From: Olsenella massiliensis
GTDB lineage: Bacteria; Actinomycetota; Coriobacteriia; Coriobacteriales; Atopobiaceae
DNA: 64,000 nucleotides
Direction of reading: 5' to 3'
NCBI RefSeq assembly: GCF_001457795.1
Contig: NZ_LN898211.1
Location: 689,038-753,037 of the forward strand
Program-made: the position numbers and the translations under genes
Shown here: in pieces, positions 29,769 through 36,484 of the stretch
Position numbering within the stretch: the stretch's first letter is position 1
How the letters are laid out: the number at the start of each line of letters is the position of its first letter
The notes under the pieces: model-generated
Database searches by the model: none
Seen by the model: only the letters and a program-made list of their open reading frames with translations
What the model was told of the DNA's origin: nothing

Positions 29769-30086
29769 ATGGCTAAGATGAAGATCAAGAAGGGCGACCA
29801 GGTTCAGGTCCTCTCCGGCAAGGACAAGGGCAAGCGCGGTGAGGTCATCCGCGCCATCCCGTCCGAGGGCAAGGTCGTCGTCCGCGGCGTCGCCCTGGTC
29901 AAGAAGGCCCAGAAGGCCGACCAGATGGGCAACAACGGCGGGATCGTCGAGAGGGAGGCCGCCATCGACGTTTCGAACGTGGCCCTCATCGACCCCAAGA
30001 CCGACACCCCCACCCGCGTGGGGTACCGCTTTGACGAGTCGGGCAAGAAGGTTCGCTACGCCAAGAAGTCGGGCGAGGAGATCTAG
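29769..30086 (+). CDS. rplX: 50S ribosomal protein L24
   Basis: A 105-residue KOW-domain assembly initiator. [20 protein letters not shown] is the KOW motif. In nearly all bacteria rplE follows at once; here an intrinsic terminator and a 5-kb surface-protein gene come between. It is therefore the last gene of this ribosomal transcription unit. Confidence 0.96.
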
Positions 30087-30143
30087 GGAGCCCGTGGCGG
30101 CAGCTTCGTGCCGGGAAGCCCCGGCGCCACATGACACCGCGCA

Positions 30144-30170
30144 CCCCGCCTCAGACGAGGCGGGGTTTTT
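30144..30170 (+). terminator. Intrinsic terminator after rplX
   Basis: CCCCGCCTC (30144-30152), loop AGAC, GAGGCGGGG (30157-30165), then TTTTT (30166-30170). This is a textbook terminator and closes the rplC-rplX unit. Confidence 0.93.
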
Positions 30171-30223
30171 CGTCGGATCGCTATGACATGCGTCGCTGCC
30201 GCGGCGGTAGGGCAGATGCCCAG

Positions 30224-30252
30224 TTGCGTTTGAGGAGCGCCGCCCCTACAAT
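30224..30252 (+). promoter_or_regulatory. Promoter of the embedded surface-protein gene
   Basis: TTGCGT (30224-30229), 17-bp spacer, TACAAT (30247-30252), about 57 bp before ATG 30309. It lies after the rplX terminator, so the adhesin gene has its own expression signal. Confidence 0.6.
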
Positions 30253-30308
30253 TCAATCTTGGTTAAGAATGTGCCGAGTCACCTCACACGAACCAGGAGA
30301 CGCACCCC

Positions 30309-33300
30309 ATGAGATGCACTCGTATCCTCAGACGGCACCTTGCCGTCCTTGCGCTTTGCGCCGCGCTCGTCACGTCCATGATCCCGGCGGACGGCTTGGC
30401 CTATGCCACCGGCCTGACGAAGGGCCCATCTGACGCCACGCCCGCATCCGGTGGCGCCGGTGTCGTGACGACAACGCAGGCTGCGCCGTCAGCTCCCGCG
30501 ACCGCGCCGTCAGCCCCCGCCGCGCCCGAGACGGACGCGAACACCGCCCCGACGGCACCCTCGCCGCAGGACGTGCGCCCGGGCGCCGCGCGCGGCGCTG
30601 ACCCCGACGAGGCCGCCTCGGCGTCTGCCACGCTCACCTTCGCGCTCAACGGGGGGACGCTGCCCGAGGGGCTGTCCCCCACCACGTCCGTCGCCACGGG
30701 CAAGACGCTTGACCTTGCAAGCCATGTCCCCACCAAGGCCGGCTCGACGTTCGCGGGATGGTACGCCGACAGCTCACTCACCCGGCCGGTGAAGGACCCC
30801 GTCGTCATGGGGTCTGAGGACATGACGCTCTATGCCAAATACGATCCCGTCGCGGGCAGCGTCATCTACGTGGACCCCGTCAACGGGTCCGACTCGTATG
30901 ACGGCCAGAGCGCCACGACGCCAAAGAAGACCTATGCCGCCGCGTTTGCCGCCGTGACGGCCAACGGCAGGATCATCGCCACGAACCTGGACAAGGCGGC
31001 AGGGGAGTGGCCCCTGTCCGTCGGGGTCGCGACGAAGCCGGTCACGCTCGAGATCGCGCAGGACACCACCTGGCAGCCGGCCTCTACGCCGGCGGCGGGC
31101 ACGAGCTGCATCACCGTGAACAGCGGCTCTCACCTTACGGTGGCGCCGGGCAAGACCCTCACGATGCGCGGCTGCCGGACGGCCATCACCATCCTCAAGG
31201 GCGGCGAGCTCAACGACGGTAACTACGTGCTTGACGGCAACGCCTACGCTTTCAACAACAAGGGCCTCGTCAAGGGAAGCGACCGGTCGGCGCTTGTCAT
31301 CAAGGCCGATTCGACCGCCACGGGCGCAGACTACCTGCAGGGGCGCGGGATGGACTATGCCGGCGGGTCCAAGTTCGTCAACGCGGACGTCACGGTCAAG
31401 GGCAGGTCTGACGATGCGGACAAGGGCGCCTGGGGAGGGCACGGCGCCCCGCTGTGGCTCGAGAACACCAGGCTTGTGACCGAGGGCGTGCGCTTCAACA
31501 TCCAGACGTGGAACGCGCCGCATAACCTCTACATGGACAGGTCATACCTAAGCACCAAGGGCAAGTGGCCCACGAGCAACTGGGCGTTCCTGGGAGACCT
31601 GTATTACCAGGGGTTTGGCCTTGTCGGCACGTCTCCGAGCCTCATCAAAAACGGCTCGACCCTCGTCGTGAACGGTGGGCGCATGACCGTGGGGTCGACC
31701 TACGACGCCGCGACCCAAAGCTATTCGAACAACACGACGATCCAAGACTCCACCCTCAAGATCCTCAACAGCAGGGGCGGCGGGCTCAACCTTAACTACG
31801 GCGGCAACGTCACGTTTGAGAACTCCACCTTCGAGACGAGCGGGCTCGTGACGTATCCTGCGTACGGCGTGCAGACCTCGGATGGCACGCCTGGCCTTCT
31901 CACCTTCAAGGGCAGCTCGGCGGTCAACACGCCCGCGCAGGACGCGACGGTGGACAACGGCGGCGCAAACGACGGCAGTCACTATGTCGTGACGGGAGGC
32001 TCCTTCCTCATCAAGAACGCCGGCGTCGCGCAGACGATCCCAACGAACGGTCCGGAAAACGGGGACGAGCCGCTGACGCTGCTGACGCTGGCGGACCCAA
32101 GCGTGAGCCTGGTCACCCCCATCAACGCGAACGGGTCCACCTACCGCTATGAGGTGGGCACCCCAACGGCGGACGGCCAAAAGCACGTGTGGGTGCCGGG
32201 TGCCACCGTGACCTTCAAGCTCAACAAGGACGGCGCGACGTTTGCGGACGGCAGCTCCGCCGACAAGGTCCAGACCACCGTGCGCGGGTACGCGCTGGGG
32301 TTCACGAGGGGCACGAGCGACCCGGGCGTCGCCACCGCCGCAGACGGCACGGTGTTCAAGGGCTGGTTCTACAAGGACGCAGGCGGCGCGGAGCACCCGT
32401 TTGACCATGCGACCACCAAGGTGACGTCCAACCTCGAGGTCTATGCCGCATGGGGGTCTCGCTCGGTCGTCTATCACCAGGGCGCCGCCAGCTGGACCCA
32501 GTCCCTCAAGGCGGGCGAGACCACAGCCACCGCCCTGGGCTTTGAGGACGTCGTGGCAAAGAACCCCGACTTCAAGGTCACCGGGAAGACCTTCAGGGGC
32601 TGGAACACCGCGCCCGACGGCTCAGGGGCCGCGACGGCGCCCGGCGCGACCCTGAGCTTCTCGGGCACAACCACCCAGATAGACCTGTACGCCCAGCTCG
32701 ACGAGAACCACTACGTCGTGTCGTTTAGCGCGAACGGCGGCACGTTCGCCGACTCGAGCGTGTTCAAGACGCATCCCGAGGTCTTTGACGTCGTCAAGGA
32801 CGCATCGGGCGGCGACGTCGCCAAGCTTAGGGCCCAGGCGCGCTATGACCAGGGCCTGTGGGGCCTTTTGGGCGGACTGAGCCACAACGACCTCAAGCTG
32901 ACGGCGGACGTCGCCACGAAGCGCGGGAGCGTCATCGAGGACGTCCACGACCCCAGCCTCGGCACGTTCTACAACTGGTACACGTCGGCAGACGGCACGG
33001 GAGCCGTCCGCTTTGAGGACCTTGACCTGGGCGGGGGAATCGTCGTCTCGCCACAGGAGCCCACGATAACGGCCGACACCACGTATTACCTCAAGTGGAA
33101 GGAGGACCCCACCGTCATCGACGTCACCGCGTCCGGGACGCTGGGCGCGGACCTGTGGGGGGCCTCCGCCGCCGCCACGAACGACTACCTGATCGCCGTG
33201 GCGGACGGCACGTCCACGTTCAGCCTCACGCAGGCAATCGACTTGACGGACGTCAAGGCGAAGGTTCAGTCCATGAGGGAGCAGTTCTCCGCGGACGTCG

Positions 33301-35378
33301 CCGACCTGTCCAAGGTCGCGCTGACGGGCACGGAAGGCGCGATCACGGCAAGGCTGACCCTGCCCGCTGAGGTGACCCTACCCGCCAACCCCACGGTGAC
33401 GCTCGTGGGCGGAGGGGGCCTGTTCGAGGTCACGGACACGCAGGTCTCGGGCCAGACCGTCACCGTCACGCTGGGTCTCAAGCGCCAGCACGCCAACCTC
33501 GCGACGCTGCTTGCCGACGCCAGCACGGCGGGCATGGGCGGCGCCATGAGAGTCTCGATCGGCGGGCTCACGCTCAAGGCGGGCACCCCCAACGGCAGCG
33601 AGCTCACGGCCACGAGCGACGTGAGCGGCAGACTCACGGCCCGGGGCAGAGGCTCCGACGCCGTGAAGGCGGCGTTCAACTTCACCTGGAGCGGCGCGCA
33701 GACCGCGTCCGGGATGGACGTCAAGGGCACGGCGGGCTCTCCCGTCGTCCGGCAGACCATCCTGGCCAAGGTCGTGACCGCCCTGGACCTTCCGGCCGAC
33801 CTGCTCATCGACGCCAATACGGAAAACGACGCGGCGTACGAGGCCGTGCAGGGCTCGACGGTGGGCCTCACCGGCGCGGTGAAGGTCACGGCGATTCAGG
33901 CGCAGATGGCCCAGATCGAGGCCCTGTATCCCGGCGTCGAACCCAGCAAGATCGCGCTCGACCTCGGCTCGTTTGGCTTCACGGCCACGATTGACGTGCC
34001 CGAGGGACTCACGCTGCCGGCGGGGCTTGACGGTGACACCTCCAAGGTGACCACGGCCGGCTTTGGCGACGGCTTCAAGGTCTCCTCCGTCAAGGTGAAC
34101 GGCAACAGGGTCACGGTGGGCTTTGAGCTCTCTGACCCTGGCTCCATCAGGACGTACGCCGACCTCCAGGGCGTCGTCAATGCTGCGGGGGCTGCCACGA
34201 ACACGGGTGACGCGGGATGGATGAAGCTCACGATTCCCGGCGTCGGGGTACCCCTGACGGCTGCGGCAGGAACGCTGCTCACGGCGACGGGCACGGTGAC
34301 GGGACACTTTGATGCCGTCGCGACGTCGGCGACAGGCACGAGCAAGGCGTTCGCGTTCACATGGGGCGCGGCCCAGTGGGCGTTCGGCAGGGATGCCGTC
34401 GCCCCGGCGGGCGACACCAGCATTCGCGCGACGCTCAAGGTAAAGGCGGCGACGCGCGACATCACCGTCAGGAAGGTCTGGCTCGACGAGGGCGGCTCTC
34501 CCATGGCGGCACCTTCGGGCAGCGCGGTGAAGGCTCAGCTCATGGACGGCGCGGAGGCGGTCGACGGCGCCACCGTGACGCTCAGTGCCGACAACGGCTG
34601 GACCGCGACCTTCTCGGGCGTGCCGACGTATCGTGACGGCAGGGAGGTCTCCTACTCCGTTGTCGAGCTAGGCGAGGTCGCGGGCTTTAGCGCCGCTGCG
34701 GCCACGGGCACTATGGCGTCGGGCTTCACGCTCACGAACACCAAGCTCAAGGTGACGCCGCCGACGCCTGCCGAGCCAAAGCCCACCTATGGTGACCCCA
34801 CGGTCCTGAAGCGCGTCTCGGGCGACCGACCCGCCGCTCCCGCCACCTTCAGCTTCGTGCTTTCGGCGGACGACCCCGGCAACCCCATGCCCGCCGGCAG
34901 CGAGGGCGGCTCCAAGACCGTCACCGTCAGCGTCACGGGCGATGCGTATGAGTATGGCGTTGAGTTTGGTGCCATCACCTTTGCCAGGGAGGGCACCTAC
35001 GCCTACACGATTCGCGAGCTTGCCGGCTCCGCGGCAGGTTACAGCTATGACGCGGCTGCTTACCAGGTGAGCTACGAGGTCACCAAGGGCGCGGACGGCA
35101 ACCTCGCGGTCCGGCGCCTCTGGCACAGGATCAACGCCGACGGCACGAAGACCAGGCTCTATGAGGGCGTCAACAACGACTCCGTCGGCGCGGTGTTTGA
35201 CAATGCCTATCATGCCCAGCCGGGATTGACGCCTCAGGCGCCTCAGGACGGTGGCACGACGGGCGCAACTCCCCAGACGAACGACGACTCACTGCCCGTG
35301 GGCCTCAGCGTCGGCCTGGGCCTTGCGGCGGTCGCCGTCATCGCCGTCGCAATCGTCCTGCGCCGCAGGAAGGGCTAG
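30309..35378 (+). CDS. Large modular cell-surface protein (adhesin-like) inside the spc operon
   Basis: A 1689-residue exported protein. Approximate modules: signal peptide (1-35); Ala/Pro/Thr-rich linker; an InlB B-repeat-like unit (108-180, ending W-Y-A-D-S-S...L-Y-A-K-Y); a probable right-handed beta-helix (186-600, opening V-I-Y-V-D-P-V-N-G-S-D-S); three more InlB-like units with G-W-F-Y-K, G-W-N-T-A-P and N-W-Y-T-S (630-930); two diverged copies of a 220-residue module (936-1154, 1155-1379); a CnaB-type domain (1383-1480, V-R-K-V-W-L-D); and an FctA/Spy0128-like pilin domain (1494-1634, with the Y-T-I-R-E E-box). A T-P-Q-T-N-D motif, hydrophobic helix and R-R-R-K-G tail end it. The last two domains normally form isopeptide bonds. 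Likely wall-anchored adhesin; the ligand is unknown. Confidence 0.85.
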   Translation: MRCTRILRRHLAVLALCAALVTSMIPADGLAYATGLTKGPSDATPASGGAGVVTTTQAAPSAPATAPSAPAAPETDANTAPTAPSPQDVRPGAARGADPDEAASASATLTFALNGGTLPEGLSPTTSVATGKTLDLASHVPTKAGSTFAGWYADSSLTRPVKDPVVMGSEDMTLYAKYDPVAGSVIYVDPVNGSDSYDGQSATTPKKTYAAAFAAVTANGRIIATNLDKAAGEWPLSVGVATKPVTLEIAQDTTWQPASTPAAGTSCITVNSGSHLTVAPGKTLTMRGCRTAITILKGGELNDGNYVLDGNAYAFNNKGLVKGSDRSALVIKADSTATGADYLQGRGMDYAGGSKFVNADVTVKGRSDDADKGAWGGHGAPLWLENTRLVTEGVRFNIQTWNAPHNLYMDRSYLSTKGKWPTSNWAFLGDLYYQGFGLVGTSPSLIKNGSTLVVNGGRMTVGSTYDAATQSYSNNTTIQDSTLKILNSRGGGLNLNYGGNVTFENSTFETSGLVTYPAYGVQTSDGTPGLLTFKGSSAVNTPAQDATVDNGGANDGSHYVVTGGSFLIKNAGVAQTIPTNGPENGDEPLTLLTLADPSVSLVTPINANGSTYRYEVGTPTADGQKHVWVPGATVTFKLNKDGATFADGSSADKVQTTVRGYALGFTRGTSDPGVATAADGTVFKGWFYKDAGGAEHPFDHATTKVTSNLEVYAAWGSRSVVYHQGAASWTQSLKAGETTATALGFEDVVAKNPDFKVTGKTFRGWNTAPDGSGAATAPGATLSFSGTTTQIDLYAQLDENHYVVSFSANGGTFADSSVFKTHPEVFDVVKDASGGDVAKLRAQARYDQGLWGLLGGLSHNDLKLTADVATKRGSVIEDVHDPSLGTFYNWYTSADGTGAVRFEDLDLGGGIVVSPQEPTITADTTYYLKWKEDPTVIDVTASGTLGADLWGASAAATNDYLIAVADGTSTFSLTQAIDLTDVKAKVQSMREQFSADVADLSKVALTGTEGAITARLTLPAEVTLPANPTVTLVGGGGLFEVTDTQVSGQTVTVTLGLKRQHANLATLLADASTAGMGGAMRVSIGGLTLKAGTPNGSELTATSDVSGRLTARGRGSDAVKAAFNFTWSGAQTASGMDVKGTAGSPVVRQTILAKVVTALDLPADLLIDANTENDAAYEAVQGSTVGLTGAVKVTAIQAQMAQIEALYPGVEPSKIALDLGSFGFTATIDVPEGLTLPAGLDGDTSKVTTAGFGDGFKVSSVKVNGNRVTVGFELSDPGSIRTYADLQGVVNAAGAATNTGDAGWMKLTIPGVGVPLTAAAGTLLTATGTVTGHFDAVATSATGTSKAFAFTWGAAQWAFGRDAVAPAGDTSIRATLKVKAATRDITVRKVWLDEGGSPMAAPSGSAVKAQLMDGAEAVDGATVTLSADNGWTATFSGVPTYRDGREVSYSVVELGEVAGFSAAAATGTMASGFTLTNTKLKVTPPTPAEPKPTYGDPTVLKRVSGDRPAAPATFSFVLSADDPGNPMPAGSEGGSKTVTVSVTGDAYEYGVEFGAITFAREGTYAYTIRELAGSAAGYSYDAAAYQVSYEVTKGADGNLAVRRLWHRINADGTKTRLYEGVNNDSVGAVFDNAYHAQPGLTPQAPQDGGTTGATPQTNDDSLPVGLSVGLGLAAVAVIAVAIVLRRRKG

Positions 35379-35485
35379 ACGCCGCCCGCGCGGGACAGCG
35401 GCATGGGGCGCCCTCATGAGGCGTCAGTGCGAGTCACCAGCGTGGCGCGTCGCCAGCGTGAGGCACGTATCAGGAACGACGGCGA

Positions 35486-35513
35486 GCTCTCCCGCACGAA
35501 GTTGCGGGGGAGC
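35486..35513 (+). terminator. Hairpin terminator after the surface-protein gene
   Basis: GCTCTCCCGCA (35486-35496) pairs with TGCGGGGGAGC (35503-35513) with one G-T pair and a 6-base loop, followed by CTTCGTA. A similar sequence with the same CTTCGTATG tail follows rplQ at 46102. Confidence 0.7.
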
Positions 35514-35543
35514 CTTCGTATGCAATGTCATGCATATGGCTCG

Positions 35544-35624
35544 CTTAGCTAAAACACGACATACATATCAAAATATCCTGCCTGAGACCTGATATTCTGT
35601 AATCTTTGTCGTGTTTTGGCTAAG
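35544..35624. repeat. Palindromic element, copy 2 (81 bp)
   Basis: Begins CTTAGCTAAAACACGAC and ends GTCGTGTTTTGGCTAAG. It matches the reverse complement of the element at 24058-24137 at the ends and at internal ATATCAAAA and TTCTGTAA blocks. The rest of the 542-bp gap 35379-35920 holds the preceding terminator, a small inverted repeat GCCTA/TAGGC at 35750-35764 and the presumed but unidentified rplE promoter. Confidence 0.88.
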
Positions 35625-35920
35625 GCTGGGAACGCGAGGCGCTCCCATGGCGCTCGATTTTCCTACAAGGGTGCCGGCCCGCCGCGACGAACCAGCAGTT
35701 GTGAATAAGTTTTGATGTTTTTTCCTGAGCCGGGACCACTTCCGCAAAGGCCTAACATATAGGCTTGCGTGCGAACTCTAGGACCATGCTGTCTAAAGCT
35801 CGCAGGCTGACACTGGCTCCCGCTTCGCTTGCCACGAATCGGGGGGCACGAGGCTAACGGACGGCCGCCGCGCCGCCGCGCCAACCCCGTGCTAAACACC
35901 ACCATGAGTGAGGAGATCGC

Positions 35921-36484
35921 ATGGCAGATCAGACCGCGTACATCCCGCGTCTTAAGGAGATCTACGTCTCCCAGGTGCGCGACCAGCTTCAGAAGAAGTT
36001 TGGCTACAAGAACGTCCATCAGATTCCCAAGTTCGAGAAGATCGTCGTCAACATGGGCGTCGGCGAGGCTGCCACCGACTCCAAGGCGATCGAGGGCGCC
36101 GTCGCTGACCTGCGCACCATCACCGGCCAGCAGCCCATCGTGACCCGCGCCCGCAAGTCCATCGCCACCTTCCACCTGCGCGCCGGTCAGCCCATCGGCG
36201 CCAAGGTGACCCTGCGCGGCGACCGCATGTTCGAGTTCCTCGATCGCCTCATCGCCACCGCCATCCCGCGTATCCGCGACTTCCGCGGCATCAGCCCCAA
36301 GTCGTTCGACGGTCACGGCAACTTCTCCATGGGCGTCACCGAGCAGCTGATCTTCCCCGAGATCGACTTTGACAAGGTCGACCACACCCGCGGCATGGAC
36401 ATCACCATCGTCACCACCGCCCCCACGGACGAGGAGGGCAGGGCGCTGCTCGAGGCCTTCCACTTCCCGTTCAAGCGGAACTAA
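35921..36484 (+). CDS. rplE: 50S ribosomal protein L5
   Basis: A 187-residue 5S rRNA-binding protein of the central protuberance. [25 protein letters not shown] and [17 protein letters not shown] are diagnostic. ATG 35921 has GTGAGGAG at 35907-35914. It begins a new ribosomal unit after the adhesin and should need its own promoter. Confidence 0.97.

Follow-up and report, generated by a model that had tools for sequence, protein, structure and literature searches.

Few gene strings in bacteria are as conserved as the spc operon of ribosomal proteins (r-proteins). In E. coli, spc is repressed by uS8, which binds where rplE begins, and rplN-rplX constitutes a separate regulatory block; a 2024 review describes the regulation of spc outside Gammaproteobacteria as unknown (PMC10931766). 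Structured RNAs located right before r-protein genes, with a narrow lineage range and covariation, are collected under r-leaders in a table of 20 candidates, in which the L31 leader alone refers to Coriobacteria and no leader of rplE, L5 or S8 appears (PMC7247131). Published insertions in r-protein clusters involve a few genes, and in some cases the parts have later separated completely; the cases described in detail come from Gammaproteobacteria and Bacilli, where most of them are situated between operons.

The locus described here resembles the uS8-controlled spc operon of E. coli in that its putative control point lies exactly at the junction between rplX and rplE, where it would act on rplE and the genes downstream. 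It differs in that a putative boundary of transcription units, with a terminator and a promoter-like block, often lies at the junction, and in that kilobases of foreign genes can intervene there. With the published r-leaders it shares a structured and covarying RNA right before r-protein genes, of narrow lineage range, but the leader of rplE in Coriobacteriia is unmatched among them and in Rfam 15. Compared with the published insertions, the break of Coriobacteriales lies inside spc, is found in one order, and combines a dedicated leader with highly variable cargo and a strong bias toward adhesins. Our main reading, to which we assign a probability of roughly 0.8, is that spc is split, with a promoter and leader of its own for rplE, and that the gap thus defined tolerates insertions and has captured cargo recurrently. 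A more specific proposal, toward which we lean slightly, is that the rplE leader of Coriobacteriia controls spc and that the acquisition of an adjoining terminator and promoter has turned the operon into a recurrent capture site, or "docking site", with a preference for surface adhesins and pilus islands.

The rplX-rplE Junction of Olsenella massiliensis

The window, that is, the whole 64,000-nucleotide stretch of DNA analysed, lies in the interior of one 903-kb contig of a genome of 1.82 Mb in 13 contigs. Here, in a bacterium of gut/oral type, a segment of approximately 5.8 kb with the gene of a 1689-residue protein of the cell-wall-anchored type separates rplX from rplE. From ORF calls and family matches, rplX (uL24; 29769-30086, + strand) closes the upstream spc unit and rplE (uL5; 35921-36484, +) opens the downstream one; the intervening ORF for the putative adhesin (1689 aa; 30309-35378, +) runs in the same direction as both, and the other boundaries between r-protein genes of the window look ordinary. 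The first-pass annotation had placed an adhesin gene between these two genes, flanked by a terminator, a promoter, another terminator and a palindromic element; the gene calls, family matches and coordinates bear this out, and a terminator, a promoter-like site, a second hairpin and a palindrome are present at the places described.

After rplX there is a perfect intrinsic terminator (ACCCCGCCTC-AGAC-GAGGCGGGGT-TTTT; 30143-30170, +; recognised by sequence and by a fold of -25.9 kcal/mol), and then a predicted, sigma70-like promoter-like site for the adhesin, which reads TTGCGT-N17-TACAAT (30224-30252, +). On the 3' side of the adhesin gene, a hairpin with a weak U-tract (35486-35513, +; fold of -21.8 kcal/mol) is a possible terminator. 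It is followed by a dispersed palindromic element, found as an inverted repeat with 34-nt arms and ends of the type TTAGCCAAAACACGAC...GTCGTGTTTTGGCTAA (35544-35624, no strand assigned), the end of which is approximately 300 bp from rplE. This interval contains the promoter-like block of rplE (35753-35785, +), conforming to a family-wide pattern with a -10-like element TAACAT (35753-35758) and then a putative initial transcribed region with TTGCGT, and the candidate leader RNA of rplE (35815-35908, +), with helices P1 (GGCUCCCG...CGGGGGG) and P2 (GCACGAGG...CCCCGUGC), recognised by covariation and a covariance model match of 36.8 bits. Several similar copies of the palindromic element occur elsewhere in the genome (among them G000:C9:50861-50945 and G000:C12:60498-60594), with conserved ends and a variable middle, and the element may be an operator or a MITE-like repeat. 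Its sole match in Rfam, at gathering and relaxed thresholds, was to mir-60 and was rejected as spurious.

Variation of the Junction among Relatives

To place this insert in context, we sampled 140 genomes of Atopobiaceae from 35 genera, 102 of which carry rplX and rplE on one contig, and measured the gap from stop to start. It ranges from 83 to 32,367 bp: 58 of the 102 genomes have gaps below 1 kb, but 79 reach at least 300 bp, 44 at least 1 kb, 22 at least 3 kb, and 9 exceed 10 kb. In the same genomes, the control junctions span 4-61 bp (rplN-rplX), 10-139 bp (rplE-rpsN) and 64-134 bp (rpsN-rpsH), and none of these three reaches 300 bp among about 100 genomes; hence, chance is excluded as the cause of the wide rplX-rplE gaps. 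The five genomes of the genus to which the window belongs have gaps of 428, 2170, 2170, 5837 and 7000 bp, three of the other members bearing inserts unrelated to the adhesin and the fourth having only the 428 bp. One site thus holds differing genes and is empty in a member of the same genus, as is the case for genomic island hotspots.

Among the class-wide sample, family f3, which we take to be Collinsella-like, has 4.6-61 kb between the two genes in every one of the 19 listed pairs that share a contig and a strand, and family f2, presumably Eggerthellaceae-like, has 16-374 bp in 59 genomes. In families f9, f13 and f15, the leader lies within a short rplX-rplE gap and the operon is otherwise compact. 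The comparison of the junction across Coriobacteriia that the first-pass annotation had envisaged, carried out on the 102 Atopobiaceae and the class-wide sample, reveals variable gaps as well as near-empty sites. Since the gaps vary family-wide, the insert of the window is one case of a site that is open throughout the lineage. The initial notion of a conserved adjacency opened by an adhesin stands insofar as the junction is open in O. massiliensis; it fails in that the adjacency is not tight in this lineage, where it forms a putative transcription-unit boundary with variable content across the family. A practical consequence is that markers based on r-protein gene order fail at rplX-rplE in Coriobacteriales.

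Signals Flanking the Gap and a Candidate Leader RNA

A terminator follows rplX within about 130-150 nt in 44-47 of the 102 Atopobiaceae genomes, depending on which of two scans is considered, against a background of approximately zero in shuffled sequences and at most 4 in 100 at the ends of rplN, rplE and rpsN. It is equally frequent with cargo (19/44) and without (25/58), and consequently is not part of the cargo. A terminator meeting our criteria is absent in about half of the Atopobiaceae genomes and in most of the Eggerthellaceae-like loci examined, so the split may often depend on promoter and leader alone. The promoter-like block (TANNNT, then TTGCGTCT, including TTGCGT) is present in 74 of 98 genomes as against 6.5% of shuffled sequences, a comparison in which the pattern was derived from the very sequences on which it was counted and shuffling was the sole control. 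Transcription of rplE may well start at this block; an alignment of the 95 nt upstream of the leader has no consensus fold.

The leader itself comprises approximately 60 nt immediately 5' of rplE, folded in two hairpins with the consensus CUCCYGG/CCRGGAG for P1 and GYRYG-A-GG/CC-CGYRC for P2. In an alignment of 55 sequences, standard pairs fill 96% of the pair cells, compensatory changes on both sides are seen in 9 of the 14 pairs, and double-change cells number 89, compared with 21 in shuffled alignments (as many in 0 of 500) and 2-13 in slid controls. The Eggerthellaceae-like version reads GACCC...GGGACGCAGGGUCGGAAAUCCUGCGU, and both helices are kept when these sequences are aligned jointly with the others (99 double-change cells vs 28). 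Covariance searches recover the leader in 155 of 298 genomes of the class, as a rule once per genome, across the order Coriobacteriales and also in a few families belonging to other orders. All 139 matches compared lie 5-149 nt (median 18) 5' of rplE on the same strand, and hence no cargo stands between leader and rplE. Two weak matches in places where r-protein genes were not found were discarded as false positives, one inside the class (G207) and the other the sole match outside it (G645). As a side observation, the reduced, 1-Mb genome G034 (loci L067 and L256) has a compact junction with no recognisable leader before rplE, the single instance of such an arrangement seen among Atopobiaceae.

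Adjoining an r-protein gene across lineages, with a structure supported by covariation, this element qualifies on sequence grounds as a new r-leader candidate; no family of Rfam 15 matched it at gathering or relaxed thresholds. In position, it agrees with the S8 operator of E. coli, a mimic of the S8 site in h21 of 16S rRNA that lies at the rplE start. The leader probably mediates autogenous control by a product of its own unit, uS8 or uL5, and it provides a concrete and testable element for a whole bacterial class. In several genera, moreover, the P1 helix has a 3' arm (GGAGG/GGUGG/GGUCG) that could apparently pair with CCCC/CCACC/CGACC near the ribosome-binding site, the corresponding segments of the window being 35843-35848 and 35895-35905 (columns 29-33 and 85-89 of alignment A2); such complementarity might allow an alternative pairing or a switch.

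A Model for the Split Operon

The genomes directly present us with a split geometry, terminators, a promoter-like block, a covarying leader, a turnover of cargo and polyphyletic adhesins at the junction. In evolutionary terms, these features could be combined as follows. In Coriobacteriales, spc would fall into two units that meet between rplX and rplE, of which the first would tend to finish at the intrinsic terminator after rplX and the second, rplE-rpsN-rpsH-...-secY, would start from its own promoter and the conserved two-hairpin leader, which in the simplest model is the element of autogenous control for this unit. The stretch bounded by the terminator of rplX and the promoter of rplE would then be free of operon coupling, and insertions there would cost little because the rplE unit needs no read-through from rplX. 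Under these circumstances, which would explain the tolerance of the site by the split itself, the gap could have become a recurrent landing site in Atopobiaceae and in the Collinsella-like family, where horizontally moving genes, presumably arriving by recombination, would have been inserted and replaced many times with r-protein expression unharmed. In Atopobiaceae, the cargo would chiefly consist of adhesins anchored by sortase and of pilus clusters that include a sortase. The window would represent one such capture, of an adhesin with List_Bact, CnaB and FctA domains and its own promoter-like site, from a family circulating among mucosal anaerobes. A highly conserved gene string can thus host a repeatedly used landing site for the adhesins and pili of mucosal anaerobes, which connects the way an operon is built with the way host-interaction genes evolve.

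Cargo of the Junction

Surface proteins, either sortase-anchored adhesins or pilus clusters, are present in 14 of the 22 Atopobiaceae gaps of at least 3 kb. The adhesin family of the window occupies the junction in four genomes of three genera, namely O. massiliensis (G000), Olegusella massiliensis (G035), Atopobium sp. oral taxon 810 (G036) and the single-contig genome G040. The cargo of relatives includes LPXTG proteins, as well as sortase-containing clusters in G048, G061 and G128. Giant proteins of 1.6-7.9 thousand residues also lie at the junction; those examined have FctA, CnaB or SpaA domains, and some others are classed as surface proteins by their clustering with examined members and their anchor-type ends, rather than by individual Pfam scans. 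Among the Pfam families counted in 93 gap proteins are D-2-hydroxyacid dehydrogenases (9), DUF4282 zinc-ribbon proteins (6), SpaA (5) and sortases (4), and also ABC transporters, signal peptidases, Fic and one IS256-type transposase. Metabolic or regulatory genes and transposases make up the inserts other than adhesins, some of them on the minus strand. Given this assortment, a benefit specific to adhesins is unproven, even if adhesins and pili predominate in the large inserts of Atopobiaceae.

In family f3, the gap (loci L157-L165) is a block of 5-61 kb with a conserved core and metabolic clusters; the core is presumably peptidase/pseudouridine-synthase-like, and in some genomes the cluster seems of purine/selenium type. 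A separate observation regards G043, which matches Olsenella phocaeensis and has a tandem pair of rplE genes (G043:C1:597591-599073; loci L075 and L146) beside an insert of 28 kb, a duplication possibly tied to the insertion.

Could a mobile element be responsible for these inserts? An ICE, IME or transposon that recognises either the rplX end or the rplE start and bears adhesin or metabolic genes would agree with the high turnover of cargo and its size of up to 61 kb, with the IS256-type transposase and a transposase of IS630 type in the gap of G003, and with the second rplE of G043; besides, streptococcal ICEs are reported at r-protein genes such as rplL. However, no integrase is found among the 25 commonest of the 80 Pfam families in the 93 gap proteins, most gaps hold ordinary genes with no visible mobility genes, and the ends of the cargo vary between species. 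The insert of the window, of which the adhesin is the only gene, has neither flanking direct repeats nor att sites, integrase, transposon ends or target-site duplications. We therefore consider such an element unlikely as the general cause.

Slightly less likely still is selection for raised dosage or expression of adhesins at a highly transcribed location presumed to be near the origin. Most of the large inserts of Atopobiaceae do encode surface proteins, and most of them run in the same direction as the r-protein operon; the first-pass annotation had supposed that the adhesin could profit from high copy number near the origin or from high local transcription. But the strong terminator after rplX shields the gene from r-protein transcription and the gene has its own promoter-like site, so that high local transcription is not indicated. 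Moreover, several junction inserts have the opposite orientation, the Collinsella-like family has metabolic genes at the same site, and more than half of the Atopobiaceae gaps (58/102) stay below 1 kb.

Turnover and Probable Capture of Junction Adhesins

With repeated capture at a tolerant gap as the reading that we favour, the turnover of cargo can be gauged on a tree built on four r-proteins, with the presence of a surface insert mapped as a label. Surface cargo requires 12 changes on this tree, at least 9 of them being forced by well-supported branches, and gaps of at least 1 kb require 18. The surface label is no more clustered than shuffled labels on the same tree (62 of 500 as low), a result in keeping with fast gain and loss that leaves the two inseparable.

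Over its length, the adhesin of the window is 35-38% identical to the junction adhesins of Olegusella massiliensis, Atopobium sp. oral taxon 810 and G040. Genome-wide searches with a 391-residue segment as query find the family away from the junction in many genomes, and also in Peptoniphilus, Mogibacterium, Actinomyces, Alloscardovia, Slackia and others. O. massiliensis itself has a paralog (G000:C13:582882-583889, locus L003) with 47% identity in the conserved segment, and the nearest relative of the window copy is found in G116, away from the junction. In the gene tree, a single clade of the four junction copies is rejected (AU p 1e-65), and the copy of G040 shares 94% DNA identity over 4.2 kb with one in Slackia exigua, which belongs to another family. 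We take this polyphyly and near identity to mean that the junction adhesins were acquired by repeated horizontal capture.

The same data render very improbable a single insertion in the ancestor of the family followed by loss in most lineages. The sharing of one junction by homologous adhesins in three genera would be in its favor, but it is at odds with their polyphyly, with the copy nearly identical to that of a different family, with the position elsewhere in G116 of the closest relative of the window copy, and with the unrelated inserts in three members of the same genus, the fourth having only 428 bp. A misassembly, which the first-pass annotation had kept in mind, has nothing in its favour and can practically be dismissed, because three independent assemblies, one of them a single contig of 2.05 Mb, have a homologous adhesin between rplX and rplE, and several others, single-contig ones included, have open junctions with differing cargo.

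A 5.5-kb contig of Curtanaerobium respiraculi (locus L194) corresponds to the insert of G040 with 96% identity and a 95-bp inverted end; the match sets in behind rplX and stops shortly ahead of the rplE leader. It was set aside as proof of transfer since it may be contamination.

The Surface Protein

The adhesin belongs to an already known type of protein, the surprise being the candidate rplE leader at class level and the landing site within spc at family level. Following MRCTRILRRH, its hydrophobic N-terminus forms a signal peptide, after which there are a low-complexity linker, a beta-helix-type region (residues ~181-640) and, by Pfam/NCBIfam matches, three List_Bact_rpt repeats, a CnaB domain (residues 1385-1478, 5.5e-14) and an FctA/Spy0128-like domain (residues 1499-1634, 1.1e-14); the C-terminus has a sorting-type end made of TPQTN, a hydrophobic stretch and RRRKG. 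A signal peptide, an LPXTG-like C-terminus with a basic tail and adhesin or pilin domains are thus all present, as in sortase-anchored surface proteins, and the product would be anchored in the cell wall and act as an adhesin. The CnaB and FctA-like domains, the signal peptide and the sorting-type end liken it to MSCRAMM and pilin-type proteins (CnaB, FctA/Spy0128, SpaA), from which it differs by its body of beta-helix and List_Bact_rpt, its TPQTN motif and its context in an r-protein operon.

For residues 181-640, AlphaFold predicts an all-beta structure with a pTM of 0.87, and the best fold matches in the PDB are parallel beta-helices: rhamnogalacturonan lyase, GH136 lacto-N-biosidases and pectate lyase. 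Their TM scores are low, about 0.4 or less, and the matches consequently support the fold class only; a role in the binding or cleavage of glycans is possible for such a modelled beta-helix. Compared with PDB sequences, the protein matches the B-domain of collagen adhesin (3.7e-17). Its TPQTN is a variant of the LPXTG-like motif with T in first and N in last position, and homologs carry SPQTG or LPQTS.
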